DNA of 64,000 bases from Symbiodinium sp. CCMP2592 (Eukaryota > Sar > Dinophyceae > Suessiales > Symbiodiniaceae), in contig CAJNDT010000942.1 in the NCBI GenBank assembly GCA_905221615.1, positions 1-64,000 on the forward strand. The letters are read 5' to 3'. Below are positions 16,161 to 64,000 of the stretch, in pieces. Numbering within the stretch: position 1 is the stretch's first letter; the number at the start of each line of letters is the position of its first letter. Position numbers and translations under genes: made by a program. Below the pieces are notes generated by a model. That model searched no databases. It was not told the origin of the DNA and worked only from the letters and a program-made list of their open reading frames with translations.

Positions 16161-18469
16161 ACACCACAAGAAATATGACCTGCAAGACTGCGCAGTCCAT
16201 CTTTGGAGGATCAAAGCTCGACCGCCGTCTCGATAACTTGGACACTTCAGACTCAAACTCCTGCGCAGAAAGCACCAGAAGGCTGCAACTTCACACGCAG
16301 CACAAAGTGTCACACAGAGGTCGGCACTTGTAGCTTTTGCAACTTACACGAACATCATAGTACCCTATCATTACTGATCCGTAACCATAGTCTGACTATT
16401 GTCGTAAGGATACAGACCCCGGCCTTGCCGCTGATCGTGGGAAACTTCAGCGGGGAATCATTCTCATCATGTTCTGGCAGCAAAATCGTGGAGTGTTGGT
16501 AACATTTGCCCACTGCCACTACAGGGCGGCCCAAAGTCAAGCTCACGCTACTGCTTCCACCCTTCCACCCTTGACAGGATGTACTTTGCACAGGTAGCCT
16601 GAGATAATGATGCCAGCCTCCGCCAAACCTCATGTCGGAGCGAAAATGCAGAACAAGACTTCCACCAGGCGGACGCAGAAGCGCAACCCTGAAAAAAGCA
16701 AACGCTCCGTAAGGCAAATGCGCACTTGTGGAAAATGTTCGTCGACGTTGATCTCCAAAGATTCGCCACCGCGCTGCATAATGATAGCCTGGGCCGGACT
16801 CCGCAAAGCCGCACAAAGCAGTTCAAAGGGTCTAGGGTTTTGAGGAGGTTTAGGGCTTAGGTTTTTGAGGTTTAGGTTTAGGGTCTACGAGGTTTATGAG
16901 GTTTCGAGGTCCGTTTCGTGGTTGAAGCTCTCGACACGAATCACCCCTGCAGCGCCTTGACCAAGCGATCTAACTCGCTGATGCGGGCGTCGAGAAGTGG
17001 AACAGGCGAGACGCTCGCCTGGCGTCATCATACTCGCTAGAGAAAAACGAGTGAGCGAGCAAGCATGGGAAAGAGATGAAAGAGGGTGCGTTAATGCAAA
17101 GTGGAGTGGAAAAACATTCCTGCGAAACGCCCACTACCTGCTCACAGCAACCCACATCATGGCCTCCAGTTCAGCGAACCGCTCGTTGATCCGGTCCAGA
17201 ATTTCGACATCATTGAGCTCGCCTTTCTCCCAACGCAGAAGCCGTCTAGGCTTCGAAGTTTTTCTTAGACAGCAGCATGGACAAAGTCCCTTCTCGAAAG
17301 GGTGCTACTGCTCCGAAGCTGCAACAATGCAGACCGGAAAACTGCGCTACCCGTGGCTCTCAACACATGCTCCCTGAACATCCCTGAACCTACACTACTC
17401 CAATCTGCAATTTGCATACTAGTTACTAGACCATGCCTCACCCATCAAGTGCCACAAGAGTTCAGCAGTTCAGGACACACCACTAGGAAACACGATCTGC
17501 GAGCGATTTCACAAGCGGCCCGTGCCTGGTGGAAACACGGGGCTAGCTGCCATACTTCAGCACGAACCACAAACCGAACATCAACACGAATTGATTGCAA
17601 AGACGCTTAACTTGATATCTTCACGTTGATGAAGGCATCCTCATGCGGAAGGTGTTTGTTGCAAGGAACGCTGTCAGAGCGCTAGGCTAGATTGCAAGCC
17701 CTAAAATCGCAACGACTGTGAGCCGCAGAAGCTTTCACAAACCCTGAGTTGCTGCTCGAATCCTAAAGCTTGGAACCAGCAGTTGCATTATGTAAGCCAA
17801 TAACCCATGGTTTGAGTAAGTGGAGCCCTCGGCTTTGATCGTTATCATTCACTGCGTGAAACAGTTCGCGCAGGATGCTCGCACGGGAGGGCTGCAGCGC
17901 CCACAACGACAGGCAGACAGGCACGGAAAGGGACATCAAGCACCGAAACTGAAGCCGACTGAATGCAACAGCGCATCGTTCTAGGGTTGAGGGTGTATGG
18001 TCCGGTTTGGAGTTGGGGGTGATGGGGCATCCGATGGCTCGACTGCAGTACGTAACAATCTACCAGTTCTCAATCCCCACACTGAGTCGAGATCCCGGAA
18101 AACAGCAGAATACTCTGTCATTTTTCTGCTCAAGATCTCGGCTCTCGCGTCGTTGGGCCATCTCCAGCAGAAGGCAAGACCTGGCAAGAAATGCAGGTAA
18201 ACATCAGAGACTGATAAAGGACTTCATACACGGCAAACAAACTTACTGGCCTTCACAGTACTCGCCCTCCGTTCCCAAGCACGCCATATCAACTCCACGC
18301 CGCGACCCCGAATCCCACAGCGAAAACCACCACTGCAAACCCAAGGTTGATTAAAGCTGGGGGCCGACGGCCCAAAAGCATAAACCATAGAGACTTCACG
18401 CCAACCCTTAGCCCTAACCTTCCATATCCACTACAACAGAGAACCTGCAGATGTATGTGCGCGTATAGT

Positions 18470-18514
18470 GTATATATATATATGTACATATATATATATA
18501 TATATACATATATC
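18470..18514. repeat. AT-rich microsatellite
   Basis: Alternating TA dinucleotides broken by TGTACA and ACA interruptions. Confidence 0.9.
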
Positions 18515-19260
18515 TCTTGTGTTGCTTTTCCAAGTATACAGATTTTGGGCTCCCTACAGAAGTTTCGAGACCTTGACCGTTCAAGATCAGCAGTGCCTTC
18601 TCGGAACATGGCAGCGTGGTGTCACTGTCCGCCTTCACACTTGCAGGAGCAGGGTTGAGGGCTTGGGGCCTCTGGTTCTGCAGGACCAAAGGAGGTATAA
18701 CGTCGTGGTTGCAAGTTCTGTTTGCTTTACTGTAACTTTGGATGCCGAGCATGGTGCATTTCTGGATGTCCCGGCTGTGCTCTGTCTTAGGCTTCAGATG
18801 CTAGGATTTATAGCCCTACTTCCCCAAAAGAGCCCAGCACTGCCCGAAGACGTCCTTCAGTCGTAACCACAGTAGGTCTCAGGCAGATCGCAATTCGAGA
18901 TCACTTGAGAGGCAAGCCTCACTTCTGTATCGGGTGGCCAATTGAAGTCTTCATGATTTTATAGCTATGGTAGCTATGGCTCCGGGTTCAAGCCGCAAGC
19001 AAAGGTGCACAAGCGAGGTAGGACACCGGGGAAGGCACTTGTGGTACCGAGCGTCACATGACAAGCTGGATGAGCATACCGCACAGGCCCAAAACCCTAA
19101 ACCCAATAATCCTAAACCCTGAACCCCTCTAACCCAGCCACTTAAACCCAGGCCGAGACCATCAACCTCCTATCCTGTGTAAGGGGAGCCAGTGGCCTAG
19201 AAGCAATGACCAGGCACCCATCGTTCAGACATCCTTTCCTGGATGGATTAAGGTGCTTGG

Positions 19261-19318
19261 GACCCTAAACCCTAAACCCTGAACCCTTAACCCTAAACCC
19301 TAACTTTAAACCCTTAAC
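19261..19318 (-). repeat. Degenerate CCCTAAA tract
   Basis: CCCTAAA units mixed with CCCTGAA and CCCTTAA variants, showing decay. Confidence 0.75.
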
Positions 19319-20532
19319 CGATACTTTGGAGAAGTCGGAGAGCGGAAACCACATGGCCCTAGAGTTTGGGGAACGCGCCTGGGCGAATTTGCCGAAGCTC
19401 CTCCGGTGCCGTAAGCCTTAAACCTTACAGTAAGTGCCCTAGACCCTGAACCTTACCGCAAGTGCCCTAAACCCTAAGTGTCCTGGACCCTAAACCTTAA
19501 ACCCTAGCTGCCCCAATTGCCCTGAGTGCCCGAAGCCTTAAGTGCCCTTTAAACCCGAAGCCTAAGCCATAAACTCTCTAAAGAACGTGCCGGTAGCGCG
19601 GCCTCATCCGAGTCCGGCTCGAAGAAGTCCGGATCGGGCTGGGAACAAAGACGCACTCCACACTCGCAAGCCCAACGCCATAGGATAGTCTTGCATGCTA
19701 CATACTGTGAAACTGAAAACGTAGTCTGTTCTGTCCTACTATATTCTGCTTCATGTTGTCAGTATATCACGTCAGATAGCACTTCATATAGCCATTTAAC
19801 ATATATGTACTATATCATGTCATAGCACACTATCTTATATTATTGTGTGTTATATAACTCTATATAACTTCTTATGCAGAATATTGCACTTCAACCGGCC
19901 TGTGGTCGGTAGCGTCGCCGTCTAGGTTTGCCTGAGCGGAGAGCACGGATTGTCGGAGATGTGGATGCAAGGAGTGCACCGCGGAACTGTGCCAGGGACG
20001 AACCGACCAGAGTGGATCGAGCACCCAACCTGCAGCAAAATCCAGAAGTGACTCCACGTGCAAACTGCTGGCTGAACTGGGCGCTGCACTGCAGGAGTAC
20101 TCTGCCTCTATTCCAAACTCCTTCCCAGGACGGAGTCATATTTGGTGAAGAGCAGCTCGTAACAACAATGCTTGGGAAATCTTGCCCGATGCTGCCCAGA
20201 GTCCGCTTTCTTCGCTTTCGGAGTGCGCGGCAGCGGAAAGTCCTTGACGGCAGTCCATTGGCACAAGTACTGAGGATCCTTTTACTCTGACTGCATTTCT
20301 CTGTCTGAACGGATCCTCGAAACCTGCTCAGCCCGACGCCGACGCTCTAAACAGCTCAACCCTAACCAGATACCGTTCCAGAAATGCCAACACAGCAGCA
20401 TCCACTTCGACCTGACCCGCTTCGACATCCGCCTCGGCCTTAATCCATCAAGGGCATTTGGGGCGTTGTTTGGACATTTTGCCTCCCAGTTCGGGTTTAG
20501 GGCTCCCAGTTCACAAGCTGGTAACATAGCAA

Positions 20533-40835: not shown

Positions 40836-41798
40836 CTACGAGAGCAGGTGGATGTAGATGCGCTGGACCCGGTCAGCTTGCATGTTCTTGAAGCTGAACC
40901 TCGCGAGGTCGCCGGAGCGCGTGCTGATGCCGCTGAGAGGGTGTTTCGGTACCCTTTCCACCGGGAAAGCGCAAATGAACTGGGTGTTGTTCCACAGATT
41001 GTCGGCGATTCGCATGTTCTTGATGCTCGAATCGTAGGTTCCGGCCAAAATCTCGAGGAAGTGGAAGTGCTCCGCGTCGCTGGCCATAGGGTATCTGGGG
41101 TACTGGAGCGCCTCCAATTGCATCTGGGACTCGAGGGAGTTCGCCGAGAACTGGCTGCCGTCGCCGGGGTGCTCGAAATTGGAGCACTCGCCGAGCAAAT
41201 CGTCCGCGTCCCGGAAGGTGACGAAGGCCCCGAGCAGCTTTGTGAAGCTTCTAGCCACCGTAACGTTGAAAGAAGTGCTGCCGGCGGGGATGCTGGAGAC
41301 CTGCGTGTGCATCGTGGGATACGCGAAGACGAGGCTGCGGCCCGAGAGGAGGATCTTTTGGTAGGACTCGTACAGGGCCGAGTCCAGGGTGACCTGGCTC
41401 GCGAGGACTCGCACGTTCTCGATGGTGTAGTCCGTCGACCCCGGGCGCAGGGCGTCGGCCGCCTCTGCAAACTCCAGCTCCAGCACCAAGTTCAACTGAG
41501 GGGGCAAGAACTTGCCGGCTTGGAACATCCCGATGAGCGTGGGCGCCGTCAGGACGTCCTTGAAGTTCTCCGCGGGGATGGGCGCCGGGGTGCCTCCCGC
41601 GAGCTCCCAGAAGCCCGTGATGCCCTTGTTTCTAAACCATTCGGCCGGTTTCAGTAGCGAGTACAGGTGGCAGCTGCGCCCGTACTCGGAGATGTCATCG
41701 CAGCGCTGGCCGTTCGCGAAGAGCTGGACCCGCCAAGCGCCATGAGTGCTCAAACTTCTGGGGGGAGTCTGTAGGTTAGCCGCGGTAGTTGTTGCCAT
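40836..41798 (-). CDS. Capsid-like protein (320 aa)
   Basis: An intact frame from ATG at 41,798 to TAG. I know no exact family. What can be seen: a beta-rich sequence with LPPQLNLVLELEF (about residues 98-110), then a central block TLDSALYESYQKILLSGRSL with YPTMHTQVSSIP, VTVARSFTKLLGAFVTF, and a C-terminal VPKHPLSGISTRSGDLARF. The last pattern (G-x-[NS]-T-[KR]-x-GD-L) resembles the second jelly roll of major capsid proteins of polinton-like viruses, and the FVTF block fits a beta-barrel strand. The fibre-like gene directly downstream on the same strand supports a virion role. Base composition is GC-rich, unlike the AT-rich block at 59-64 kb. Capsid function is an inference; another structural protein is possible. 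Confidence 0.5.
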   Translation of the reverse strand: MATTTAANLQTPPRSLSTHGAWRVQLFANGQRCDDISEYGRSCHLYSLLKPAEWFRNKGITGFWELAGGTPAPIPAENFKDVLTAPTLIGMFQAGKFLPPQLNLVLELEFAEAADALRPGSTDYTIENVRVLASQVTLDSALYESYQKILLSGRSLVFAYPTMHTQVSSIPAGSTSFNVTVARSFTKLLGAFVTFRDADDLLGECSNFEHPGDGSQFSANSLESQMQLEALQYPRYPMASDAEHFHFLEILAGTYDSSIKNMRIADNLWNNTQFICAFPVERVPKHPLSGISTRSGDLARFSFKNMQADRVQRIYIHLLS

Positions 41799-42390
41799 GA
41801 TTTACATTTCATGCATGCGTGCAATTTGCACACTGCTTTGTATCTGGCAGACTGTGGCGAAAGCTTGGCAAACGCATTGTGAAGACCCATCCAACTGCAG
41901 CTTCGAAGCGAGATGTTGTGGTATTCTTGATTTTGACATCATGCATGAGTGCTCGCAGTTTTCCACATGTTTTTTCAGGCAGTCTGAAGCACATTTTGAC
42001 AGAGGTCCTCTACATGAACAGTGGCTATTCTTTTGGGTCACTGCACAGGATCACGGACTTTCAGCGCGATTTTCTGTTGGACTGTGGTGTGGGGCAACTT
42101 TCTCCCATGTCTAGTGTCTGCGTGCGGATACTTCTGTCTGTTGTGTGGGGCGTAGGCACGTAGCGAACCCTGAACTGTATGTTTCACCTCGTGGTAGCTC
42201 GAGAAAGCAATTTGTCGTCACACATTCTGAAATATTTCATTTGTGTTTCGACCTTTTTGATTTACATGCTTTGCACTGTCATGCACGCATGGAATTGTGT
42301 GAAGCGATTACATCCGAAGTCGGGCATCAAGCTTGATTTTTAGAGGGGGGTAGCTGCCATAGGGGCGCCAGAGCACTCTGCGTTGGCTCT
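41799..42390. other. Unassigned spacer between the capsid-like gene and the retroelement
   Basis: No recognisable gene. GATTTACAT occurs just upstream of the capsid-like ATG (41,799-41,807) and again at about 42,258-42,266, both near ATGCA-rich words. Confidence 0.4.
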
Positions 42391-44905: not shown

Positions 44906-46933
44906 ATGTTTGGTAGACCCGATGCGTCACAGGGGTTTGGCCATGACGAGGAACCGTTCGATCAGGACGACTCCGATCGCAAGGATTATGTGAGCTCACC
45001 TTGGAACTCTGACTTTGGTGTGAGGTCTAATTCTGGAGAGGGTGAGAGAGATGAGTCATGGTCGCATGTGGAGCCGGTGGCTTCAGATGAGGCTCGTTGG
45101 TATCAGGATGCACGAGTCGACGATTCGGCTGAGCCGTGCCAGCCGAGTGCGAGCAAGTTTAGGAGGACCGCTTGGAAGGATCCCGCACCTGTGCACCCGG
45201 CAGTGGCACAGGCTCTCTTCGAAGAGAAGAGGAAGTCTTCGATCAGACTCCCTTGGGAGTCGGGCTTCGGCAAAGCAATTTTTGGGAGTGTCGGGAATCC
45301 GCTCGTGGCTCTTCCATTCCATCTCCCGACGATTGGGCGATCAGACATGTTTGCTCAGATTGCGGTATCTTCGTCTTCAGGTTCCGATCCAACTTGGTAC
45401 AAGGAAAACCCTTTTAGAGCCAAGCGACTTTTCGCCACGAGGATGGCGAGGTCGGAGGATCAGCTTCGTTCAGCTGCTCTGGCCCGAATTAAGGAGATCG
45501 TCTTGTACGATCCCAATGACTCTAAGCTGGGGCGATCGCTGTTGGAAACCAGTGGAATGCTTGTTCCAGAACACCAACTTGCCATGACCTTCATGGATGC
45601 TTTTGCCAGGAAGTCTACGAGTACTCTTTCCAAGAGATCATGTGATTACTTGAAGTTCTCCCGTTGGCAGGTCCAGGACAATCATGCCAGACCTTTGCGT
45701 GCTGTTGAGAATGACCTGTACCTTTATGTATGCTATCTGCGAGACGCAGAGTGTGCCCCTACGGCGCCTGCTGCATTCATTTCGTCATGGAGATTCTTTC
45801 ACTACATGACCGGCAGCAACGCTGTCCCTGACATCATGTCGCAGCGAGTTGAGGGTGCCGCGCACTCCTGCTATCTCAAGAAGGCTCCATTGAGACAGGC
45901 GCCGCCTCTGAAAGTTCCCATTGTCATGAGAATGGAGGTGATTGTCTTCGAAGGATCGGACTTGCACGCTACCATCGCGGGGTTCGCATTGTTCTGCTTA
46001 TTCTCGGTTGCCCGATGGTCCGACGCGGCCAAGGCTACCGATCTCACCATCGAGAACCACGGGGCCATGTGTCTTGTGGAGGCTGTTATGCTGGGTCACA
46101 AAACAGCCAAGCTTGCAGACGACCGGGCCACTTTCATGCCCCTCATCGCCCTCGGGCACACTTTCTCTTCGGAGCCGTGGGCCACGGCATGGATGTCGGC
46201 TCGAACTCGATCAGGAGTTGACGCCAAAACCATCATTATGCCAGCGTGGTCGGAACAAGCCGAGATGTGGCTGGATAGGCCCATGACTTCAGCAGAAGGG
46301 TGTGCGTGGCTTCAAGAGATTCTTGCGGTAGATGCTGATGAGTCTTGGAACCTCGACAGGGTCACGACTCATGCCTTGAAATCCACTCCGTTGTCCTGGG
46401 CCACAAAGAGCGGTCGCTTTGATAAGCACGAGAAGCGCATTTTGGGGCACCACTCTGCCCCCGACGAGCGGATGATCATCACCTACGGGAGAGATGTGAT
46501 GGCCCCCGTCTTGTCGAAGCTTCAGCATCTGATTGACTTGATCCGTACAGACAGGTTTGATCCAGACTTGTCCAGGTCTGAGAGGATGGCGAACATTGTG
46601 GAACGACTCCACGATGAGGATCGTCGGGTCGAAGACCTGAAAAGGTTTGACGATTCTGAACAGTCAGATGTATCATTTGAAGACCACGTCGGCATCGATG
46701 AGCCCCCCAGCCTGGTGCCAGGGATGTCTGATCGCCCTGAGCCGCCAGAGACTGGCACCTTCGTCCGGCATCGGATCTCATCCATTGTGCACGCTGTCAT
46801 GGTCCCTGCCTCGCTGCTGAGATGCGGGAGACCCCTGAACAGCAACTATGACGCGTGCAGTTTCGACCCCCAGCAGCCGCGCGAGGATATCTTCTGCGAA
46901 CAGTGCAGATTGGCGCGAGTCCAGGGGGATTAG
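44906..46933 (+). CDS. Tyrosine recombinase of a DIRS/Crypton-type element
   Basis: The first in-frame ATG is at 44,906; the frame itself is open from 44,849. The protein is about 675 aa. Numbering from 44,855, the N-terminal 140 residues are acidic and low in structure. Residues 240-350 look like a SAM-like DNA-binding domain. The catalytic domain follows: first Arg in FSVARWSD (R387), a Lys near HKTAK (417), the HxxK box THALK (H506, K509; Lys in place of the common Arg), LGHH (about H532), and the Tyr in TYGRDVM (Y544). This is the constellation of phage-type integrases as used by DIRS, Ngaro and Crypton elements to insert a circular DNA. A C-terminal tail with Cys residues (CSFD, CEQC) may bind zinc. 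It lies 132 bp upstream of the Gag-like gene and in the same frame, but other stops intervene. Confidence 0.85.
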   Translation: MFGRPDASQGFGHDEEPFDQDDSDRKDYVSSPWNSDFGVRSNSGEGERDESWSHVEPVASDEARWYQDARVDDSAEPCQPSASKFRRTAWKDPAPVHPAVAQALFEEKRKSSIRLPWESGFGKAIFGSVGNPLVALPFHLPTIGRSDMFAQIAVSSSSGSDPTWYKENPFRAKRLFATRMARSEDQLRSAALARIKEIVLYDPNDSKLGRSLLETSGMLVPEHQLAMTFMDAFARKSTSTLSKRSCDYLKFSRWQVQDNHARPLRAVENDLYLYVCYLRDAECAPTAPAAFISSWRFFHYMTGSNAVPDIMSQRVEGAAHSCYLKKAPLRQAPPLKVPIVMRMEVIVFEGSDLHATIAGFALFCLFSVARWSDAAKATDLTIENHGAMCLVEAVMLGHKTAKLADDRATFMPLIALGHTFSSEPWATAWMSARTRSGVDAKTIIMPAWSEQAEMWLDRPMTSAEGCAWLQEILAVDADESWNLDRVTTHALKSTPLSWATKSGRFDKHEKRILGHHSAPDERMIITYGRDVMAPVLSKLQHLIDLIRTDRFDPDLSRSERMANIVERLHDEDRRVEDLKRFDDSEQSDVSFEDHVGIDEPPSLVPGMSDRPEPPETGTFVRHRISSIVHAVMVPASLLRCGRPLNSNYDACSFDPQQPREDIFCEQCRLARVQGD

Positions 46934-47065
46934 ACACGGAAAGGTCGAGCAGAGACGCAAACATCGATGCTGCGCATCTGTGTTATAGCCTTGCTTGTTG
47001 CCTCCGTCGTGAGCCTTCACCTAGAGTGACGCGTTTTGTTCAAGCTTGATCCTCGGACGGACGCC

Positions 47066-48322
47066 ATGACTTCCACTCTGCTTGAGTCGGAAGCCGAGTT
47101 CTTGGCCAGAGCCAGAGAAATCGGTATGGATGATGCTTTCGTTAAGTCGCTTCAAGCCGCAGGGATCAAAACCTTTGGAAAGCTGGCGTACATCTGTGCT
47201 GTCAGCCCACAGAGTGGTGATGACACTCCTCTTATCCAGGCGGTACAGAAGATCCTGTCTCGCGACCTCACCCCGGGCGAGCTTCCTGACCTTCGACGAT
47301 TGTGGTTCGAGGCCAACACGTTTGCCTTGTCTGATCTCAAGTCACGGGTGGAACGATCTTCTCTTGATCCTCCTCGGGAGCTTCCTTTGGCCGAGCGCTT
47401 GACTCGCCTACAGAATCAAAAGGCTCGGCTATCAGGGATTGTGTTCACCGAACGGGTGGAACCGGCACATAGCCTCATCGACAAAATCCAATCCATGGTC
47501 GATTCCGGGACGCTCACATACCTACCGCCGCACAAGTGCCCATCCAGAGCGTTGGAAATTTCCAGTGACAAACCTTCTCAACAAGTTACGCTTGATGCTC
47601 AAGGCGGCTTGAAAATATCGAAGAAACACGCCGACCTGGAATGCGACGTTCGAGGAGAACTTCGACTTCGGGAGGCCTTCACCCGACGGGCGCTGGCCTT
47701 CGACCAAATCGGTCTCATGTCGTTTGCTGCCCACGAGGCGTGGCACACCTACTTGTTCGACTCAGTGACTCGTGACCCTCCACCTGGTCACAAGTTCACC
47801 AGCGTTGCTCAGGCTCTGAACGCTGACCGTGAGCTGTGGCAGATCCTTGCTCAAGAAAGTCGTGGCTCCATCAAGGTCATCGGGGGCGTCAAGCCCCCCT
47901 TGGATGTCTTCATCGAGCGCCTGCAAACCCATACTCGTGTCAATGTTTGCTTGGCCAACCTCCCGCAGGCCACCGGTGGAGGCAAAGGCGACAAGGGCGA
48001 TCGCGGTGGCAAGGCCGATGGCAAAGGTGACCGCGAAGGCAAGGGCCGTGGTGGTCGCGGCAAAGGTCGTGGCGACAAAGGCGGTCAGAAGCGCAAGTGG
48101 GATGATGCTCAAGTGGACCCCGAGATCCTGCAGCTGCTCAAGGAGATGCCGAAGGACTGTGTCTCGCGCATGCCCAAGACTCGCCAGTTCTTATGCGTGT
48201 TGTTTCAGCACGGCAAATGCCCTGATCAGTCCAAAGCCCGATGCGACCGTGGCTTGCACAATTGTTGGCATAAGGACTGCCTCAAGAAAGGAGTGCCGTA
48301 CTGCGAGTGCCGTCACTCTTGA
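47066..48322 (+). CDS. Gag-like nucleocapsid ORF, ending at a probable readthrough stop
   Basis: The ATG at 47,066 is preferred over the upstream TTG; about 418 aa. Helical region from residue 1 to about 300, then a basic Gly/Lys/Arg-rich linker (GKGDKGDRGGK, GGRGKGRGDKGG) typical of RNA-binding segments, then a Cys/His-rich end with spacing like C-x7-C ... GLHNCW-x3-C ... PYCECRH, a zinc-binding fold. Such an order (structural domain, basic linker, zinc knuckle) marks retroelement Gag proteins, which package the element RNA. The stop is TGA followed by CTAG, and the next long ORF continues in exactly the same frame. Confidence 0.75.
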   Translation: MTSTLLESEAEFLARAREIGMDDAFVKSLQAAGIKTFGKLAYICAVSPQSGDDTPLIQAVQKILSRDLTPGELPDLRRLWFEANTFALSDLKSRVERSSLDPPRELPLAERLTRLQNQKARLSGIVFTERVEPAHSLIDKIQSMVDSGTLTYLPPHKCPSRALEISSDKPSQQVTLDAQGGLKISKKHADLECDVRGELRLREAFTRRALAFDQIGLMSFAAHEAWHTYLFDSVTRDPPPGHKFTSVAQALNADRELWQILAQESRGSIKVIGGVKPPLDVFIERLQTHTRVNVCLANLPQATGGGKGDKGDRGGKADGKGDREGKGRGGRGKGRGDKGGQKRKWDDAQVDPEILQLLKEMPKDCVSRMPKTRQFLCVLFQHGKCPDQSKARCDRGLHNCWHKDCLKKGVPYCECRHS

Positions 48323-48346
48323 CTAGGCAGCTCAGGCCTGCCTACC
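48320..48346 (+). promoter_or_regulatory. Candidate stop-codon readthrough signal (TGA-CTA-G plus stem-loop)
   Basis: The codon at 48,320-48,322 is TGA and is followed by CTAG, the UGA-CUA-G context known to be leaky in several viruses and cellular genes. Two bases after the TGA, AGGCAG pairs with CTGCCT across a 7-base loop (48,325-48,343). Upstream and downstream frames coincide, and no ATG occurs before methyltransferase motif I in the downstream frame. Confidence 0.65.
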
Positions 48347-50656
48347 ACTGACGCCGCTCCCTTTGCAATTTTCGTCGAGCTGTGTTGTGGCTCGGCCTCT
48401 CTTTCACATGCTGCCGCCTCTCAGGGATGGCAGGTTTTTCCTATTGATCATCATGGAAACCGTTTTGAGCCCAAAGTGTCGTGCCTGCCCATCGATTTGG
48501 GCACACTTTCTTCGCACCGCTTGATCGACGATATGATTCATCAGCTCAGGCCCCTCTGGCTACACTTCGGATTGCCGTGTGGCACTGGAAGTCGCGCTCG
48601 TCAGCTGCCCATCAGTTCTGCGTTGCGGGCGCAGGGCGTGCCACAGCCCCGACCGCTCCGATCTGCCAAGTTCCCTCTGGGCTTACCTGATCTTAAGCCC
48701 CATGAACGCCTCCGGGTCGAGGCTGCCAACGCTGTGTATAGCACTTGTGTGCGGGCCCTGTTTGCTGCTTGGAAGGTCAACGCCTTGGTGACCATCGAAA
48801 ACCCTGCGCGGGCCTGGACATGGGCCGCTCTCGCTGCTTTGATCTGCCAGTTTGCACGGGACAATTCTTGTCCCGCCTTCGCTGATTGGTACTTCGAGCT
48901 TCAGGACGTGTCGCTCTCCCTTTGCATGTTTGGCGGAAATCGCCGCAAGGACACGCGCCTTCGCTGCACGCCGAAGGTCTTCGAGGTTCTTTCGGTCCCC
49001 TGCGACGGGAAGCATTCTCATGTTCCGTATGGGCAAAAGATGCGTATGGGTACTTGGGTCTTCGGTACATCGTCTCAAACGCAATACCCTCATGTCTTTT
49101 GCCGAAAGCTCGTACGGGCGGCATCTGCTGCTGTGAGTCCGGCTCTGTTCCGTGAGACCACTCGGCAATTCAGGTTGGACACGCTTGCTGCTGCCGGCGC
49201 CCAGACCCTAAAGCATGCCTCCCTGATCCCTGAGTTCCGTCAGATTGTTTGGGCCGACCGGGCGCCCAATCCCGATGCCAAACCTTTGCCCGACATGATG
49301 CCTCCCAAGGATGGCGCCTCGGCTGGATGCTCTGCTAGACCTTCATGGCCTGTGCTCCCTGGCCAGGCCCCTGTGGACTCTCCCGCTCCTCTCGATGCCC
49401 CTGCGGTCGAGAAGCTTGCTTGGTCGTTGCTCCAGCAGGAGACTTGCACGCAGGATGATGTTTTGCAACTTGTCAACCTCTTGGAGCCCTCTCTGCGCTC
49501 CCGCCGTGGGGCGACCGCTGAAGGCTTGGCATGGACTTGTGGTGCCTACGTTTTCTCTTCCCAGGTGGGCCTTCACAGTGTGTCTCGGTCTATGCCGCAC
49601 GTGTGCCGCCTTCTCGCGGCTACTGTTCAGCACTTCGCCCCGGGTGCCGTGTACACTTCTTTGGCCGTCTTCGACAACTTCTACGGCCCTGAACATGTTG
49701 ATGCTCACAACGACCACCAGTTCTACAATGTCATCATTCCGCTCTCCCGCTTTTCCAACGGCGGTGTGCGTGTGAAGGGTCAAACCTTGCCTGTTCATGC
49801 AGAGCCATGCTTGCTTCAGACCAGCTTGCCGCACAAGGCTATGCCGGCCCAGGGTCGCCGCACAGTCTTGGTGGCATTCACGGTTCGTGACTGGCGCAAT
49901 CTTCCGCCCCGTGATTTGGCGGTTCTTCGTGATCTGCACTTTGCCTGGCCCGGCCTCTCTGACTGCCCCTCCAATTTGGCGGGGGAAGGCGAGGTTGGAG
50001 GACCAGTCTTCACCCCGAGTCCCAGTAAGGCTTGGGGCGTGTATCACACGATGCAGGAACACTTTGATCTGGCAACCAAACTGGAGCATCCCGCTGAGTC
50101 GTCAAGCACCGTCCCCGATTGCATAAGAAGGGCGATATTCGACCTGGCTACCAAGGGCCCAGAGGAGATTGCGAAGATGAGGCATGAGACCCTTTCGAAC
50201 ATTGAGGCGAGGGCAAATGAGCTTGGGACCAGCGAAGACCACCCCATCACGGGTGGCAAGTGTCTTCAGCTCTTCCGAGAGTTGATCGAGGAAACTGGTT
50301 TTCCGGATAAGGAGGTCTGCCGCTTCATGGAAGAGGGAGTGTCTCTTGTAGGGGCCGAGGCTCCTTCTCCTTTGTTTCCGACCAGGCCCAAGCCCATGAG
50401 GGCCACTCCCGAGCAGCTTGATTCACAGGCCATTTGGAGGCGCCGTGAGCTCCTCTCAAAGCCGCCTCAAAAGTTGTCGCAGGAGGAGCTGACCATCTTG
50501 AATGATGAGACAGACGAAGAATGCCGATTGGGTTTTCTCGAGGGGCCGTTTGATTGCGAGGAGAAAGTGACAGAGAGGTTGGGAACCAGCCAGTGGACTC
50601 CAAGCCAAAGATTTTTGCTCTTGCAGGGAGAAGCGAGAAAAGCCGCGTGTTACTGA
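48323..50656 (+). CDS. Pol part: C5-methyltransferase-like plus 2OG/Fe(II) dioxygenase, leading to RT
   Basis: Open directly after the TGA of Gag, in frame. About 15 residues in comes methyltransferase motif I, FVELCCGSASLS, then PIDHH, the Pro-Cys loop GLPCGTGSRAR, the ENP box (TIENPARAW) and RRKDTRLR, an order matching cytosine-C5 methyltransferases; a methyltransferase domain is known in DIRS-type elements. Counting from 48,476, residues about 345-475 form a double-stranded-beta-helix dioxygenase: VYTSLAVFDNF, metal ligands H407-x-D409 in PEHVDAHND, GGVRV, distal H453 in LPHKA, and the 2-oxoglutarate Arg in GRRTVLVAF. The remaining 250 residues are a helical linker. The frame stops at 50,656; a one-base shift at an A4 run restores the start of a reverse transcriptase. 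The ORF probably modifies DNA bases of host or element. Confidence 0.75.
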   Translation, partial: LGSSGLPTTDAAPFAIFVELCCGSASLSHAAASQGWQVFPIDHHGNRFEPKVSCLPIDLGTLSSHRLIDDMIHQLRPLWLHFGLPCGTGSRARQLPISSALRAQGVPQPRPLRSAKFPLGLPDLKPHERLRVEAANAVYSTCVRALFAAWKVNALVTIENPARAWTWAALAALICQFARDNSCPAFADWYFELQDVSLSLCMFGGNRRKDTRLRCTPKVFEVLSVPCDGKHSHVPYGQKMRMGTWVFGTSSQTQYPHVFCRKLVRAASAAVSPALFRETTRQFRLDTLAAAGAQTLKHASLIPEFRQIVWADRAPNPDAKPLPDMMPPKDGASAGCSARPSWPVLPGQAPVDSPAPLDAPAVEKLAWSLLQQETCTQDDVLQLVNLLEPSLRSRRGATAEGLAWTCGAYVFSSQVGLHSVSRSMPHVCRLLAATVQHFAPGAVYTSLAVFDNFYGPEHVDAHNDHQFYNVIIPLSRFSNGGVRVKGQTLPVHAEPCLLQTSLPHKAMPAQGRRTVLVAFTVRDWRNLPPRDLAVLRDLHFAWPGLSDCPSNLAGEGEVGGPVFTPSPSKAWGVYHTMQEHFDLATKLEHPAESSSTVPDCIRRAIFDLATKGPEEIAKMRHETLSNIEARANELGTSEDHPITGGKCLQLFRELIEETGFPDKEVCRFMEEGVSLVGAEAPSPLFPTRPKPMRATPEQLDSQAIWRRRELLSKPPQKLSQEELTILNDETDEECRLGFLEGPFDCEEKVTERLGTSQWTPSQRFLLLQGEARKAACY

Positions 50657-50828
50657 CAACTTGAGGGACTCTGGCGTCAATGCGTCGTTCGGGTCCACAT
50701 CTCTGCTGCAGCTTCACGACCTGGATTTCGTCGCTTCTATGGCTCTCTTCGTCGCAAAGGTCTGGAGCGACAAGGAGAGGGTGCGTGTTTCCCTTCAGTC
50801 GGGTGAGGTCCTCGATAGAGTAGAGTAG
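50640..50828 (+). pseudogene. Truncated reverse transcriptase (fingers region only)
   Basis: In the frame one base off from the Pol ORF, KPRVTDNLRDSGVNASFGS followed by LLQLHDLDFVASMALFVAKV matches the start of RT domains of DIRS-type and related retroelements (the K-x-R-x-x-D-N-x-x-x-SG-x-N pattern of the fingers). The frame ends at TAG after about 62 codons, before the catalytic Asp motifs, where unrelated repeat sequence starts (about 50,835). The element is therefore 3' truncated and cannot make RT from this copy. Confidence 0.7.
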
Positions 50829-51178
50829 GATAGTTTTTTTTTCTCTCTCTGGGGAGGGTGTTCCAGTTCCCTACTCTGTAGTAGCTACGAGGCTAGTTTC
50901 TAGACATGGGGTAGAATTCGATACTCGGAGGGTCTGTCGATTTTGAGGGCTGGAGGCCGTACGGCTCGCAATCTTAGGGGCTCTAAAGTGCTTGCAAAAC
51001 GGGCGCGCGCGGCATCGGAGGCAGTTTGAAGACGCGAAGGGGGTTCGCGAGCTGTTCGGAGCTGTTTGGGAAGCGACGCGCGCTTATGCGCGCTCTGTTG
51101 GCGCGGGGACTTGGAAGCAGCTCGTAGGTCGCTCGCGAGCTGCTGGGCTGCAGCTCTACAGCCGGCCGGCTCGGAGGC

Positions 51179-51262
51179 TTTATTTTTTATATAAAACCTA
51201 AATGCCTCGATGCCAGACCCCGGGATTGAGGCATTTATTTTTTTTATAAAAATAAATCCTCC
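51179..51262. repeat. Hairpin element (family P10, copy b)
   Basis: TTTATTTTTTATATAAAACC and AAATGCCTC face GAGGCATTT and TTTATAAAAATAAA. Shares its core with 22,239-22,317. Confidence 0.8.
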
Positions 51263-51284
51263 GAGCCGCTCGTGAGCTGTTGGG

Positions 51285-51495
51285 CTGCAGCTCGTAAGTC
51301 GCTCGTCGGCTGCTGGGCTGCAGCTGGTAAGTCGCTCGTAGGTCGCTTGTGAGCTGCCGGCAAGTAGCTCGTGAGCTGCTGGCGAGTGCTCGTAAGTTGC
51401 CAGCAAGCAGCTCGTGAGCTGCTGGCGAGTGCTCGTAAGTTGCCAGCAAGCAGCTCGTAAGCTGCTGGCGAGTGCTCGTCAGCTGCTGGCAAGAG
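51285..51495. repeat. Tandem repeat of GCTGGCGAGTGCTCGTAAG units
   Basis: Units of about 45 bases built from GAGCTGCTGGCGAGTGCTCG and AAGTTGCCAGCAAGCAGC, each internally near-palindromic. A shorter array of the same words lies at about 51,945-52,075. Confidence 0.8.
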
Positions 51496-51717
51496 GCGCG
51501 CCCTTAAAGTTCCTCCAAAGCCCGTTTTGCAAAGACTTTAGAGCCCCTAAGATCGTCAGAGCTGCGGGCCGTAGGCCCGCGAATCGATAGTGCTCCAAAG
51601 TATCGAATTCTGACCTATGTCTCGAAGTAAGGCTTGTAGCTATCACAGAGTGGAGCGCTGGAACACCCTCCCCAGAGAGAGGCGCGCGAGTCTGTTCGGC
51701 GCGGAGGGCGTGGGAGT

Positions 51718-51950
51718 AGTTCGAGTTGCTGAGTTGCGGTTCAAGAGTCGCCGTGTTGCGGTTCAAGAGTTGCTGAGTTGCGGTTCAAGAGTCGCCGTGT
51801 TGCGGTTCAAGAGTTGCTGAGTTGCGGTTCAAGAGTCGCCGTGTTGCGGTTCAAGAGTCGCTGAGTTGCGGTTCGAAAGTCGCCGTGTTGCGGTTCAAGA
51901 GTCGCTGAGTTGCGGTTCAAGAGTCGCTGAGTTGCGGTTCGGAAGTCGCT
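51718..51950. repeat. 18-bp tandem repeat TTGCGGTTCAAGAGTCGC
   Basis: About a dozen copies, alternating GTCGCCGTG and GTTGCTGAG variants to give a 36-bp higher-order period. Confidence 0.9.
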
Positions 51951-52251
51951 CGTGAGCTGCTGGCGAGTGCTCGTAAGTTGCCAGTATGTAGCTCGTGAGC
52001 TGCTGGCGACTGCTCGTGAGTTGCCAGCAAGTAGCTCGTAAGCTGCTGGCGAGTGCTCGTCAGCTGCTGGCAAGTGGCGCGCCCTTAAAGTTCCTCTAAA
52101 GCCCGTTTTGCAAAGACTTTAGAGCCCCTAAGATCGTCAGAGCTGCGATTCGCGACAGTGCTCCAAAGTACCGAATTCTGACCTATGTCTCGAACTAAGG
52201 CTTGTAGCTATCACAGAGTGGAGTGCCGGAACACCTTCCCCAGAGAGAGCG

Positions 52252-59779: not shown

Positions 59780-60031
59780 TTATACATAAACATCGCCGTC
59801 CTTTTTGATTTCGTAGTATTCCATCGTTGTTGGTTTTGGGTTTGTAATATCTCCGTTGTTTAGTTTTGTCAAATACGCTTTTCTTTTATTTTGATATGTT
59901 GTATCTTTTGATTTTGTTGTGGTGCTGGGGACTGGTGTAAATAGTTTGTTGTGTATTTCTTCTATTTTGTTATTAATATTTTCTAAGGTGTTGTTGATGT
60001 CGTTAAGTGTGTCTTCCAAACCTTCAGTCAT
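59780..60031 (-). CDS. Small coiled-coil protein (83 aa)
   Basis: The N-terminal half is a regular Leu/Ile heptad helix (EDTLNDINNTLENINNKIEE); after a Pro/Ser/Thr linker the C-terminal half is basic then aromatic (NKRKAYLTKLNNGD, MEYYEIKKDGDVYV). No known family. It starts 36 bp after the stop of the helicase-HNH reading frame and is followed 42 bp later by the 79-aa gene, all on one strand. The arrangement resembles compact viral genomes. Function unknown. Confidence 0.6.
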   Translation of the reverse strand: MTEGLEDTLNDINNTLENINNKIEEIHNKLFTPVPSTTTKSKDTTYQNKRKAYLTKLNNGDITNPKPTTMEYYEIKKDGDVYV

Positions 60032-60049
60032 ATAAAATACTAAACATTA

Positions 60050-60064
60050 TTTTTAAAACTTTTA
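60050..60064 (-). promoter_or_regulatory. Candidate promoter motif upstream of the 83-aa gene
   Basis: TTTTTAAAACTTTT (plus-strand reading) starts 19 bases before the ATG, with an AT-only leader, matching the motif before the 79-aa gene. Confidence 0.5.
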
Positions 60065-60067
60065 TTC

Positions 60068-60619
60068 TTAAAATTGTTCCTTATCGCTTGCCGCGCAGTT
60101 GCATTTCTTACAGTATGCTATGCAGTTGCTTATGGTATGACTCTGTGAATTATCTTTCCTTTGTGCTGTTAGATTCGTTGTTATGTTTCCGCTTTTTAAC
60201 TTAACATAAAATTCTACACTGCGCTTTTCACAGAAACCGTTTAACCTATCTAACATCCATTGGGCAGTTATGTAATTCTTATGGTCTATCTTTCTTTTGC
60301 CTGCCCTGTCCTGTTCTTTGTAGTTCTGCACCTTGCGCTCTAAATATTTAAAGATACATTGTTTATTAAATGTAGTATCTTTATTATCATCATACCTGTA
60401 AAGACTGACCTTATTTAAATCGGTTGCTCTCGTGATTGCCGTCCATAACCACTCCTTAGAAATATTGAAATGATGATAATCAAAGATTGTTATACCCGTG
60501 TTTATGCTGGAACCCTGCACGCTATGGCAGGTATAACAGTAACTAAATATAAAGTGCTTCCTTAAAACATCAATGGGTAGGGTTTGTATAAATCCTTCGT
60601 GTTCCTCTTTTAGTTTCAC
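60068..60619 (-). CDS. C-terminal part of the polymerase-helicase: helicase domain 2B and HNH-like zinc region
   Basis: Begins directly at a one-base frame break (GTG, no ATG). Residues 27-39 read YCYTCHSVQGSSI, the SF1B motif also written T-x-H-x-x-QG; residues 57-73 read WLWTAITRATDLNKVSL, motif VI with its Arg. These complete the Pif1/RecD-type helicase of the preceding frame. The tail (about residues 129-178) has a Cys, then NLTAQRKDN, H161 and SNCIAYCKKCNCAASDK, resembling the treble-clef core of HNH endonucleases, though one of the first pair of cysteines seems lost. HNH activity is therefore doubtful. The stop at 60,068 is 36 bp before the next gene. Confidence 0.7.
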   Translation of the reverse strand: MKLKEEHEGFIQTLPIDVLRKHFIFSYCYTCHSVQGSSINTGITIFDYHHFNISKEWLWTAITRATDLNKVSLYRYDDNKDTTFNKQCIFKYLERKVQNYKEQDRAGKRKIDHKNYITAQWMLDRLNGFCEKRSVEFYVKLKSGNITTNLTAQRKDNSQSHTISNCIAYCKKCNCAASDKEQF

Positions 60620-61806
60620 TTATCGCCGTTAATCTCATGAATAATGTATCTAAAATTAACTTGAAATTTATATTCGGTTGTTTTTAAATACTCCCTGCAT
60701 ATAACCACCTCGCCTATGTCATATTCGTTTTTGTGATTCTGGCACCTCCTTATTTCGTTGCTTACCTCCTTGCACGTATCGTTTAAGTATGCTATGTTGT
60801 TATTGTTTGTTTGTATGTCGTCGGTGTATTTGAAGTATTTTTCTATCAACTGTTTCGTTTTAACTTTGTTTATAAATATGTCGTCGTATATGTTTGCTAA
60901 TTTGTCTTTGTCCTCCTGAGTTGTTAACCGCTTACACTCCCGTAAATAAATATGATATTTAAATATTTTGTTTATGCAGTGGTTTGCATATACTTCGTGG
61001 TCGTGTAGGTTAGTTATTTCCGAAACGGGTTTTAACTGCTTACCGTCGCCGGTTGCCACCACCGTTAAATCCTTATGTGTTTCGACGAACTCCCTAATTT
61101 TATTCAAAACCCTTAACCCGTTAAAATAAATCTCGTCAAACACTATAACATCATAATTAGAATAGTCAAACTTTTCTAATTTTTCGTCGCCCACTGCTAT
61201 GGAAAAGAATTTGTTAATTGTCGTGGCATCCTTTCCGTATTTTTGAACCAGTTTATTAGTGGGACACACGAACAGCACTTTTAAACCTAAGTCCCTGATT
61301 TTTTCGCATATATAACTTTTACCAGAACCGGCATATTTCGCCCTAATCGTCACGTGCTTTACTGAAAAATATTCTCTATGATTTTCGTTGTGTCGTATTC
61401 GTTTTGTATGTCTATCTTCTTGTTTATATACACCGGTATTTTGATTCCTTTGTTTTTTTATGTGATAGTCCTCGCTGGGCATAATTATATCGTCGTTGCT
61501 TTTATTTACTCTCCATTGACCTATGCACTTTGTAGATTCCCCCGATTTAATTCCCAGTGCTTCTTTTGCTGTGGGCAGGTCTTCGGCGTTTATAACAAAT
61601 GCATCGGTTTTGACACTATAAGGTTTAACACCGCGTTTAAGTAATCTGTTATAACACTGATACATATTAAAGTTATGCTGTTGCAGTAGCACTTCCTTTA
61701 TATAAACGAACCCATTTGCCAATTTCGTGTTATCGGATATATTTACTATGTAATATGACTCACCATCTGATATTTCGTTCCATTCGGTGCATTCCTCGTC
61801 GTCCAT
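60616..61806 (-). CDS. Polymerase motif C plus SF1 (Pif1/RecD-like) helicase core
   Basis: The first 100 residues are the end of a family-B DNA polymerase: ANGFVYIKEVLLQQHNFNMY and SVKTDAF (residues 64-70), where the Asp fits motif C, then GQWRV and IIMPSE. The helicase follows: Walker A AGSGKSY (159-165, Lys163), VLFVCPTN (motif Ia), Walker B VIVFDEI (D224, E225), motif III VVATGDGKQLKPV (249-261) and a motif-IV-like region. It unwinds DNA with ATP, presumably at the fork of the element. The frame ends at TGA at 60,616, while the remaining motifs lie in the next frame. The open frame extends upstream of its first ATG (61,806), as expected if it is part of a longer fused protein. Confidence 0.85.
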   Translation of the reverse strand: MDDEECTEWNEISDGESYYIVNISDNTKLANGFVYIKEVLLQQHNFNMYQCYNRLLKRGVKPYSVKTDAFVINAEDLPTAKEALGIKSGESTKCIGQWRVNKSNDDIIMPSEDYHIKKQRNQNTGVYKQEDRHTKRIRHNENHREYFSVKHVTIRAKYAGSGKSYICEKIRDLGLKVLFVCPTNKLVQKYGKDATTINKFFSIAVGDEKLEKFDYSNYDVIVFDEIYFNGLRVLNKIREFVETHKDLTVVATGDGKQLKPVSEITNLHDHEVYANHCINKIFKYHIYLRECKRLTTQEDKDKLANIYDDIFINKVKTKQLIEKYFKYTDDIQTNNNNIAYLNDTCKEVSNEIRRCQNHKNEYDIGEVVICREYLKTTEYKFQVNFRYIIHEINGDK

Positions 61807-61832
61807 TTCATAAAACTTAACTTCTTCTTCTG

Positions 61833-61997
61833 TTAGTTTGTGTATTTTTCTCCGTATTTTTGTTGAAAATCCGATGCCTCCTTTAGATTTTTAAACAGTA
61901 TGCTTTTTTGGTCGGTGCTGTTGGTTCTTTCTAAAAGTCCAAAATTCACCACCGCCACCTGTTTTTTAATTGCCATGTCCTCCTCGTCGTTTTCACT
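61833..61997 (-). CDS. Middle segment of the polymerase (motif B), in its own frame
   Basis: A short open segment (ATG at 61,976, stop at 61,833, open further upstream) between the two larger frames. It encodes MAIKKQVAVVNFGLLERTNS, which has the K-x4-N-x2-GLL pattern expected of polymerase motif B. It joins to the frame before it near a T8 run (62,000-62,007, plus strand) and to the frame after it near T5 runs (about 61,841-61,865). By itself it is not a gene. Confidence 0.6.
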   Translation of the reverse strand, partial: SENDEEDMAIKKQVAVVNFGLLERTNSTDQKSILFKNLKEASDFQQKYGEKYTN

Positions 61998-63933
61998 TAT
62001 TTTTTTTGTCCCATAACTCCCCGACTATGTTTTTATAATTCACAGAATGCTGGAATGAAGGTTGTTTATAACTTATGGTTTTGATTTGTGATGCGTCCAA
62101 CTGCTTTAAATACAAACCGTATAAGAGACAAAACTTCTTGCTTAACATTATATTAATTTTCTCGCCCGTGTTCTGAACATAATATAAGGTGTAATCGTGC
62201 ATTTTGTTAAAATCCATTTGTTCTGTATATGGTTGCCACACGTCAAACTGATTAAAACCGAATGTCTCCACAATATCCATAAACGATTTAGTAAATGCTT
62301 TGGACATATCCAGTTCCACTTTCGGCATCGTATCCGAAAACTTATGTGATACAAACATACCTACAGGCACTATGGTTTTCGCCTCTTCGTATATATCTAT
62401 GTCCACTTGGTTATAAAACGGTTTATGAAGTGGATTAAACAAAGACTTATTAAAATCAAACATTGCTCTATTCATATTGTTATAGGTTTCTTCGTTGTCT
62501 ATTGCCATACATCCGTCCGACGATGTTTTTATCAAGTTCTGGGTTTTGACTATAAAGGTGGTTTTCTTCAATTTCATTCGTATCTCTGACACTATACCCG
62601 CTTGAAAACGAATTTTAGGTTCATATCCACCGCCCAGCGTTTGAAATAATATTTTTGTTAAGTTGTTGTCTTCGGGCACTAAGTATTTCGTTATAGGTTC
62701 TTTATCGTTGCTGACCAGTTTTAATATTTCGTAAGCATCCTTAATCATTATAAGTTGTGGCGGTTCTTCCTTTTCGTTTATGTGATAATCGGTAGATGCT
62801 GTAACTATGGGTTTTTTGCCTACATTGTCCAGTTTCTGCTGTATGCTTTTTAGGTTGTTGTTCATTGTGTAGATGTGATTGTTTTTCACAAAAGCATAGA
62901 AACATTTGAGTTTTTTGTTTGCCTCTTCCGGTTCGTGTCTGTATATAAGGTTTTCACAGCAGTCAAAAATTCGGGCAGGAATCCTGTAATGTTTAAAGAC
63001 TTTATCCATTTCATTAATGGTTGCCCCCCTGCTGTAAAAATCGTTTCTACCGATTATTTCCATAATCCTTTCCCTCGTTAGTCTGTCCCTTCTTTTATCA
63101 TTCATAAGACTGTCTTTATAAAAATCGCTTAAAGCATTAATCCAACATTGATTATCAACATGTTCGTTGTTGCTTATCGCTTCCTTTAGGTTGTATAAGT
63201 TATGATTAACAGGGGTGCTGACATAACGATGGTATATAGATATAAGGTTGATGTCGGTTAAACTTTCGTCCATAATGTTAAACTTCTCGCCTTTTTTATT
63301 GACTACCTCCACCTGTTGTATTTTAATTGCGTCAAACAGGTTGTCATAATATCGTGTTAAGTCATCCACCATTTCCTTAAAATCCTTGTCCTTGTTCAGC
63401 ACTTCTATTACCTTTTCAAATTCTTCATTTGCGTTTTCCTTTCTTTTGCTTACGAAGTCCTCTTTGGTTTCAAATCTGAAAATAAGATTTTTAACGAGTG
63501 CTTTATCAAAGTTTTTTGCTTTGATGGTCGCCTGTCTCATGTCAAAGTTTTCAATGTAAAAGGCCGTTTCAAATTTTTTAAAAGCGGGTTTCACCTTTTC
63601 GTTTCGCGGTTTCCTTGTGGTATAAAGTTGGAAATTTATTAAATATGTGTTTTGACTTTTGGTTTCCGCCAGACTTTCGTTTAATGGTTTTGCCTTTTTA
63701 GTTTTTGGTATGGTGTCCTTGTATTGCTTGAATGCTTTTTCATAGGTTTTTTTGTTCTTAGAGGTTAAACCTTTTATTAAATTCTCGGCGGTTGCTATGT
63801 TTCCGATTTTACGCTCCTGGTATAACTTGATGATTTCGTTAATTCTTTTTTGTGTGGTTTTGTTTGCTCCTTCTGCCACCTTGTCCTTTAATTTGTTAAG
63901 TTGGATGAGATTACTCCTAATAAACTTGCTCAT
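61993..63933 (-). CDS. Family-B DNA polymerase, N-terminal and motif A part (646 aa)
   Basis: ATG at 63,933 after an AT-only leader with TATA-like words. Residues 1-90 are basic and helical. Residues 255-370 hold NQCWINALSDFY, LTRERIMEII and NNHIYTMNNNLKSIQQKL, a layout I associate with virus- and transposon-type polymerases of the DNA_pol_B_2 class, where this area corresponds to an N-terminal or exonuclease-like region. Residues 480-530 (ETYNNMNRAMFDFN, DIDIYEEAKTIVPVGMF) lead into motif A, VELDMSKAFTKSFMDI (D542). Motifs B and C lie in the following frames. The polymerase would copy the element's own DNA. The frame ends at TGA after an A8 run. The gene is far richer in A+T than all sequence left of 59 kb. 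Confidence 0.8.
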   Translation of the reverse strand: MSKFIRSNLIQLNKLKDKVAEGANKTTQKRINEIIKLYQERKIGNIATAENLIKGLTSKNKKTYEKAFKQYKDTIPKTKKAKPLNESLAETKSQNTYLINFQLYTTRKPRNEKVKPAFKKFETAFYIENFDMRQATIKAKNFDKALVKNLIFRFETKEDFVSKRKENANEEFEKVIEVLNKDKDFKEMVDDLTRYYDNLFDAIKIQQVEVVNKKGEKFNIMDESLTDINLISIYHRYVSTPVNHNLYNLKEAISNNEHVDNQCWINALSDFYKDSLMNDKRRDRLTRERIMEIIGRNDFYSRGATINEMDKVFKHYRIPARIFDCCENLIYRHEPEEANKKLKCFYAFVKNNHIYTMNNNLKSIQQKLDNVGKKPIVTASTDYHINEKEEPPQLIMIKDAYEILKLVSNDKEPITKYLVPEDNNLTKILFQTLGGGYEPKIRFQAGIVSEIRMKLKKTTFIVKTQNLIKTSSDGCMAIDNEETYNNMNRAMFDFNKSLFNPLHKPFYNQVDIDIYEEAKTIVPVGMFVSHKFSDTMPKVELDMSKAFTKSFMDIVETFGFNQFDVWQPYTEQMDFNKMHDYTLYYVQNTGEKINIMLSKKFCLLYGLYLKQLDASQIKTISYKQPSFQHSVNYKNIVGELWDKKNK

Positions 63934-64000
63934 ACTATACCTTAGATATATAATTATATTAAATGTTTTTTCTTTAAGTAGTTTTCCAAAAAAACTTTTT
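63934..64000. other. AT-rich leader of the polymerase gene, cut by the window end
   Basis: AT-rich, with TATATAATTATATTAAATG (plus-strand reading) close to the start codon and a further AAAAAAACTTTTTT at the very end that resembles the promoter motif of the small genes at a longer distance. Confidence 0.4.

Follow-up and report, generated by a model that had tools for sequence, protein, structure and literature searches.

Results

A single in-frame UGA separates Gag and Pol

We found that, in DIRS-type retroelements of the dinoflagellate Symbiodinium sp. CCMP2592 (a strain named S. tridacnidorum in PMC8045281), the Gag-like and Pol open reading frames (ORFs) are separated by an in-frame TGA codon, which is present, with Pol in phase, in all 64 junctions read in the genome. 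Judging from the sequence comparisons below, programmed readthrough of this UGA appears to be the best explanation of the arrangement, with a probability that we put at about 0.76. The window referred to below is the whole stretch of 64,000 nucleotides that was analysed, and its relevant features, all on the + strand, are as follows.

44906-46933 (+): tyrosine-recombinase-like ORF, first ATG at 44906, stop TAG
47066-48322 (+): Gag-like ORF of 418 aa, ending in ECRHS before the TGA; 52 relatives
48191-48319 (+): C-terminal Cys/His zinc-finger-like region of Gag, from its motif, with EC.H directly before the stop
48249-48335 (+): 87-nt intron implied by gene model P0001, taken to be an artefact of annotation
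48320-48322 (+): in-frame stop TGA between Gag and Pol
48323-48328 (+): CTAGGC, the 3' context of the stop (UGA-CUAG)
48323-50656 (+): Pol ORF fragment with DNMT-like part, dioxygenase-like part and the start of the reverse transcriptase (RT); its end is frameshifted
48324-48344 (+): inverted repeat of 7 bp (48324-48330 with 48338-48344) and a 7-nt loop; not supported as a functional element
48347-49147 (+): cytosine-C5 methyltransferase-fold domain, Pol residues 9-275, from the predicted structure
48533-48535 (+): first in-frame ATG of Pol, codon 71
49630-49900 (+): dioxygenase-like segment, bounds approximate, from weak Tet_JBP matches in relatives
50640-50813 (+): remnant of the RT region in another frame, from tblastn

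The ORF listing places Gag (47030-48322, ATG at 47066) and Pol in one common frame, with the single TGA as their sole separator in the window. This agrees with the initial annotation, which had placed a Gag-like and a methyltransferase ORF in frame with one TGA between them, and CTAG directly 3' of it was likewise found, at 48323-48326. For one copy, a shared frame followed by 16 open codons has a chance probability of about 0.15, and TGACTAG occurs five times in the window against 5.3 expected. Since these chance figures are modest, a single copy proves little, and the case rests on other genomic copies. The window copy itself is dead: its RT is frameshifted and cut off, and tblastn revealed no further RT or RNase H match in the window beyond 50640-50813. 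The copy is truncated at its 3' side, and the repeats at 50843-52250 (an inverted repeat with 162-nt arms, two direct 205-nt copies and 22-nt tandem units) sit exactly where the Pol reading is cut off.

Identity of the ORFs

The Gag ORF has a C-terminal Cys/His finger, recognised by motif, and directly precedes Pol. Among 53 aligned Gag rows, 29 end within four residues of EC.H: nine with EC.HS (the window's Gag and its close relatives), 17 exactly at EC.H and three at 2-4 residues past it. The other 24 are truncated, divergent or changed in the last ligand. On this pattern the C-terminus may be read as a zinc finger. The structure model of Gag had a mean pLDDT of 80.7 and matched no PDB fold at E ≤ 0.001. 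Over 511 positions, the recombinase-like ORF upstream shares 36% identity with P0079, a gene model in which a Gag of this kind is present as well. The ORF contains ARWSDA, HALKST, GHHS and TYGRD, which we take to be candidate catalytic motifs of a tyrosine recombinase (YR).

The Pol ORF had been described as a methyltransferase/dioxygenase. Its methyltransferase part holds, with a predicted cytosine-C5 DNMT fold and relatives in which RT shares the ORF with DNMT (RVT_1 in 18 of 25 aligned proteins). The dioxygenase part comes down to a weak Tet_JBP match in two of the 25 (best E 0.039), absent from the window's own protein, and to an HVD...H...R pattern at 49630-49900 that is presumably dioxygenase-like; the confidence of the structure model is low across this segment. 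The DNMT domain in Pol is shared with the SymbioDIRS-Dnmt3 elements, and the union of RT and DNMT in one ORF is seen through the relatives, the window copy keeping a remnant only. Two Pol domain orders occur. The window lineage has the methyltransferase first, and the types of L021, L033, L034 and L036 (numbered loci of the genome search) have PCGT about 300 codons in; both orders show the same Gag-TGA-Pol arrangement.

Searches of Pfam and NCBIfam gave no match for the three window ORFs (recombinase-like, Gag and Pol), and Rfam at its gathering threshold and ARAGORN gave nothing over the window. No related locus was found when viral contigs and genome contigs were searched with proteins, alignments and patterns; three pattern matches in viral contigs were not relatives (best tblastn E 0.11 against 81 proteins), and phage records gave no match. 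Elsewhere in the window, a 424-codon open frame at 60616-61890 (-) matches the helicase family AAA_30 (E 2.6e-7) and, weakly, Viral_helicase1; it lies in a region (60001-64000) of 34-36% GC, much more AT-rich than the rest, and is possibly an inserted viral or mobile piece. A 321-codon open frame at 40836-41801 (-), in the GC-rich stretch at 38-42 kb, has no Pfam match, and 705-20000 holds many interstitial arrays of a 7-nt unit, TTTAGGG or a variant.

The stop and the frame are kept across genomic copies

The genome of the strain was searched with a Pol query (at least 69 matches) and a distant Gag query (at least 104 matches); these repeat counts are lower bounds. Among the 104 Gag matches, 30 loci, 11 short stretches and at least three more (L021, L022 and L027) were read at the DNA level. 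Nine rows were excluded before counting: L012, L016, L018, L020, L026, L029, L030 and L031, in which the first upstream in-frame stop had no Gag C-terminus before it or the match started inside Pol, and L044, a deletion. L009 was retained despite a Gag broken just upstream of the junction. This left 64 junctions, 63 from other copies and one from the window (L004), and the alignment of copies proposed with the initial annotation thus gave a clear outcome: TGA was kept in 64 of 64 with Pol in phase, and a sense codon at this position, which would have spoken against readthrough, occurred in none of them.

Copies within a family are near identical, and the 64 junctions comprise 44 distinct sequences. 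Clustering of the last 60 Gag residues at 80% identity gave 12 clusters; two of these consist of aberrant copies from the window family, which leaves about ten Gag clusters. Compared with the window, the Gag of eleven representatives is 29-65% identical over the aligned part, and Pol 28-61%. At least 100 Pol codons are open in 62 of the 64 junctions, the exceptions being L046 (end of the locus) and L068 (stop after 36 codons). The in-phase frame is the one that matches Pol proteins in all 17 chosen representatives, and in the 29 junctions checked the other two frames close before the Pol frame (for example, 31 and 19 codons versus 498). The open frame that holds the Gag match spans 383-473 codons in 103 of the 104 matches and 1387 codons in L044. 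The fused frame of L044 does not represent a sense codon at the junction, as an internal deletion removed both the junction and motif I; this natural deletion joins Gag to the middle of the DNMT in one open frame without a stop.

CTA follows the stop in several lineages

The triplet after TGA is CTA in 31 of the 64 junctions, CTC in nine, CAG and CCC in seven each, and others in ten. The +4 base is C in 54, A in seven and G in three, and the full CTAGGC is present in 12 copies. CTA occurs in four of ten clusters: the window with its 62% relatives, L034/L035, L036 with 14 others, and L075/L076. One cluster (L051 and nine others) has three different non-CTA contexts, and L017, an 83% copy, carries GTAG after the stop. 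Conservation of TGA-CTAG thus holds in part, the TGA in every copy and the CTAG only in some lineages. The contexts CAG, CCC, AAC, GAT, AAG and ATC are not, to our knowledge, known as leaky.

CTA accounts for about 5% of the leucine codons in Pol (38 of 705), and it is the first Pol codon in six of the eight families, assigned by hand, whose Pol starts with leucine (P 6e-7); with close pairs merged, the count is four of six (P 1e-4). Neither CTAGGC nor TGACTAGGC differs between the window lineage and the 61-62% lineage (Pol about 61% identical), where nearby synonymous sites are near saturation: for L004 against L015, the final 45 codons of Gag have 25.5 synonymous sites and 24 such differences, and codons 1-70 of Pol have 52.7 sites and 37 differences. 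The UGA-CUA/CGG context that characterises type II readthrough is found in the window lineage and not in every family, CGG following in 0 of 64. UGA-CUAG has been reported to give efficient readthrough in human-cell reporters (PMC4132726), and UGA-CUA alone about 1.5-2.9% (PMC11166343). A Gag:Pol ratio of about 20:1 calls for a rate of roughly the latter size (PMC2194720), and we infer by analogy that a similar rate may apply here.

The hairpin after the stop was also examined. The initial annotation had described a 6-bp stem with a 7-base loop; the loop is as described, the stem has 7 bp, and neither its significance nor its conservation was borne out. RNAfold favours a slightly different pairing from the 7-bp repeat, 13 of 200 shuffles folded equally well or better (z -1.6), and the other copies folded gave different predicted pairings, with a GC-rich hairpin of some kind adjoining the stop in most of them. 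Stem-loops of type II readthrough lie, in many cases, 6-12 nt downstream of the stop and are not required (PMC11166343); the window hairpin is 1 nt from the stop. On the z score and the lack of conserved pairing, the hairpin was rejected as a readthrough stimulus.

Purifying selection acts on Pol upstream of its first ATG

Motif I begins at Pol codon 17 (nt 48371), upstream of the first in-frame ATG at 48533, as had been claimed for the cofactor site. The predicted DNMT fold starts at residue 9 to 16 and its first strand occupies residues 16-20, so that a protein started at codon 71 would lose this strand. Several lineages have no early ATG: the first one is at codon 71 in the window lineage, at 199-200 in the 62% lineage, and in the L021 type mostly at 428 (five copies out of seven), L024 having it at 489 and L028 at 248. 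The chance of finding no Met before it is 0.3 for the window, 0.011 for L015, 0.0036 for L021 and 0.06-0.85 for the others tested; only L015 and L021 are therefore unusual.

Pol codons preceding the first ATG are under purifying selection. Over codons 1-70, dN is 0.18 and dS about 2 between L004 and L015, and among 93% copies dN is 0.00-0.013 and dS 0.12-0.19. Three L021-type pairs gave pre-ATG dN and dS of 0.007 and 0.012 (an uninformative pair), 0.011 and 0.068, and 0.019 and 0.092. Codon-usage log-odds were uninformative for the short pre-motif segment. As in type II readthrough, Pol is an in-frame, selected extension with no AUG of its own at the start.

Pol could instead be translated separately, by starting at a non-AUG codon, through internal ribosome entry, or from a shorter mRNA made by trans-splicing. 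The window has a CTG at Pol codon 6, and a Met start upstream of motif I occurs in ten of 24 listed Pol relatives (the misaligned row of P0012 was not counted). In some families the first ATG is early, at codon 14 in L034 and L035 and at codon 32 in the L036 family, and in the family of L065, L066, L068 and L072 an ATG immediately follows the TGA in two of the four copies. The other two, however, have AAG at that place. The two lineages compared share no near-cognate start within the 17 codons that lead to motif I, the CTG of the window aligning with CCG, and BLASTP similarity between the window Pol and P0078 extends back to Pol codon 5. Separate initiation, moreover, has no need of the phase of Gag, yet Pol is in phase in all 64 junctions. 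We regard this explanation as unlikely.

Gene models that skip the stop disagree with one another

A protein search that allowed 642-2042 aa, with the best 7995 candidates scored, gave five matches, each a gene model of this strain. In one of them, P0079, recombinase and Gag are combined and the protein stops at ECKH; the other four, P0001, P0078, P0080 and P0081, leave out the stop and so connect Gag with Pol. In public records, the element proteins P0001, P0026, P0030 and P0078 are labelled F25B4.6, a name apparently transferred from an unrelated gene.

The four joined models assume that a short intron over the stop is removed from some transcripts, producing Gag-Pol by alternative splicing. 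Drosophila copia sets its Gag:Pol ratio by splicing (PMC2194720), and this strain was annotated with the help of transcript data, additional dinoflagellate donors, GA among them, being permitted (PMC8045281). The four models, however, make the join at four different places. The P0001 donor is GT in only one of 13 copies, that of the window, and GC in ten, GA in one and TG in one; with GC and GA allowed, 12 of 13 copies would retain a usable donor there. Minor splice donors include GC. Given that and the acceptance of GA, the donor alone does not exclude splicing. The acceptor AG of P0001 is missing in four of the 13 copies (L008, L014, L015 and L019), and its removal of conserved zinc-finger-like residues also weighs against the model. 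The P0078 junction is a 24-nt stretch in L015 that can be read as GT...AG with its AG inside TGACTAG, and an in-phase GT...AG pair is common by chance, being available at 95.7% of 46 control positions. The P0001 and P0078 introns look like gene-finder repairs of the stop, and we consider splicing quite improbable as the source of Gag-Pol.

Stop codons elsewhere in the elements

Control stops were read at both ends of the elements. Ten Pol frames end in TGA (nine) or TAG (one), L005 and L008 ending early, and are followed by CGG in seven and by CGA, CCA and GAT in one each. Upstream, ORFs of 150 codons or more were sought within 1500 nt before Gag. The longest at each locus, which may not be YR in every case, ends in TGA at 28 of 29 loci and in TAG at one, with CTA after none; the YR-like ORF of the window itself ends in TAG. 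UGA itself is common in these elements, and CTA after UGA is not. Because neighbouring ORFs are also mostly TGA-ended, the identity of the stop is weak evidence and no sign of selection by itself, and it was dropped as such.

A general decoding of UGA as sense in this host, through a suppressor tRNA or selenocysteine insertion, is in keeping with UGA being the only stop that would be bypassed. The same codon, however, also terminates Pol and most upstream ORFs of the same elements, and the UGA in question comes where Gag finishes, behind its EC.H; the probability of this alternative is very small. A nonsense mutation, which the frameshifted and truncated RT of the decayed window copy might suggest, is refuted by the TGA in all 64 junctions, including seven copies with an open Pol of 1261-1265 codons.

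A further observation counts against readthrough at the Gag stop: UGA-CGG, a leaky-type context, ends Pol in seven of ten copies, where no readthrough is expected. The Pol TGA is followed by CGG in L007, L009-L012, L014 and L015, and by CGA in L006. As this context too is of the leaky type, Pol might have an extension past its own end stop.

Discussion

On the basis of the conserved junction, we propose programmed UGA readthrough as the way in which these elements express Pol. Termination at the UGA by most ribosomes would yield free Gag, in which the last EC.H ligands come right before the stop. A minority would insert an amino acid and continue in frame, yielding a Gag-Pol fusion that would carry DNMT, dioxygenase-like, RT and RNase H parts from the same mRNA as Gag. 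The fraction of readthrough would then set the Gag:Pol ratio. Read directly from the DNA are the UGA, the frame, the downstream context, the lack of an early ATG in several lineages and the purifying selection ahead of the first ATG; the bypass by ribosomes, its rate and the identity of the inserted residue belong to the inference.

UGA-CUA(G) would likely be the main stimulus in the window lineage and several others. Other families keep the UGA and the frame and differ in context, and so would need another stimulus, which suggests that a second one exists or that context matters less in this host. We lean towards the view that the whole dinoflagellate DIRS-type clade, with both Pol orders, relies on UGA readthrough, part of it through UGA-CUA(G) and the rest through a different stimulus. 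If so, it would be, within the literature searched, the first group of tyrosine-recombinase retrotransposons expressed by readthrough, and dinoflagellate ribosomes would tolerate programmed UGA bypass at large scale. No report of readthrough in YR retrotransposons or in dinoflagellates was recognised from titles and abstracts among the open-licence PMC papers listed, and the balance of Gag and Pol in DIRS-type elements is little described in the DIRS literature surveyed. If readthrough is right, about ten diverged families in one genome share the same in-frame UGA and offer natural 3'-context variants for measuring stop leakiness in an understudied eukaryote, and the gene models for these elements would be suggested to contain artificial introns.

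Expression of Pol by Gag/Pol readthrough is already a known kind of expression. In the gammaretrovirus MuLV, one in-frame stop between Gag and Pol sets their ratio, as proposed here (PMC2194720); that stop is UAG with a purine-rich spacer and a pseudoknot (type III, PMC11166343), unlike the UGA-CUA of type II. Closer in its stop codon is Tca2 of Candida albicans, in which Gag and Pol lie in one frame with UGA between them, as here. Tca2 is, however, an LTR element and not a YR element, has a predicted pseudoknot after the stop, and its stop flanks alone gave no readthrough in yeast, which calls for caution (PMC2194720). The readthrough genes OPRL1, OPRK1, MAPK10 and AQP4 have the same seven nucleotides, UGA-CUAG, as the window, and OPRL1 also conserves GC after CUAG, like the CUAGGC of the window lineage; these are vertebrate cellular genes, and the MAPK10 extension is 13 residues (PMC4132726).

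Among retroelements of this type, an overview of DIRS1 lists one ORF each for Gag, YR and Pol, those of Pol and YR overlapping (PMC3266345). The nearest known elements are SymbioDIRS-Dnmt3 (de Mendoza et al. 2018, PMC5890265), Symbiodinium elements of DIRS type with a separate tyrosine recombinase ORF, for which the YR-like ORF of the window is a candidate counterpart, and with DNMT and RT in one ORF and two Pol domain orders, as seen here. The main text of that paper does not contain the words 'gag', 'readthrough' or 'AlkB'. As far as that main text shows, the description of SymbioDIRS-Dnmt3 is extended here by a Gag ORF, an in-frame UGA and a dioxygenase-like segment.
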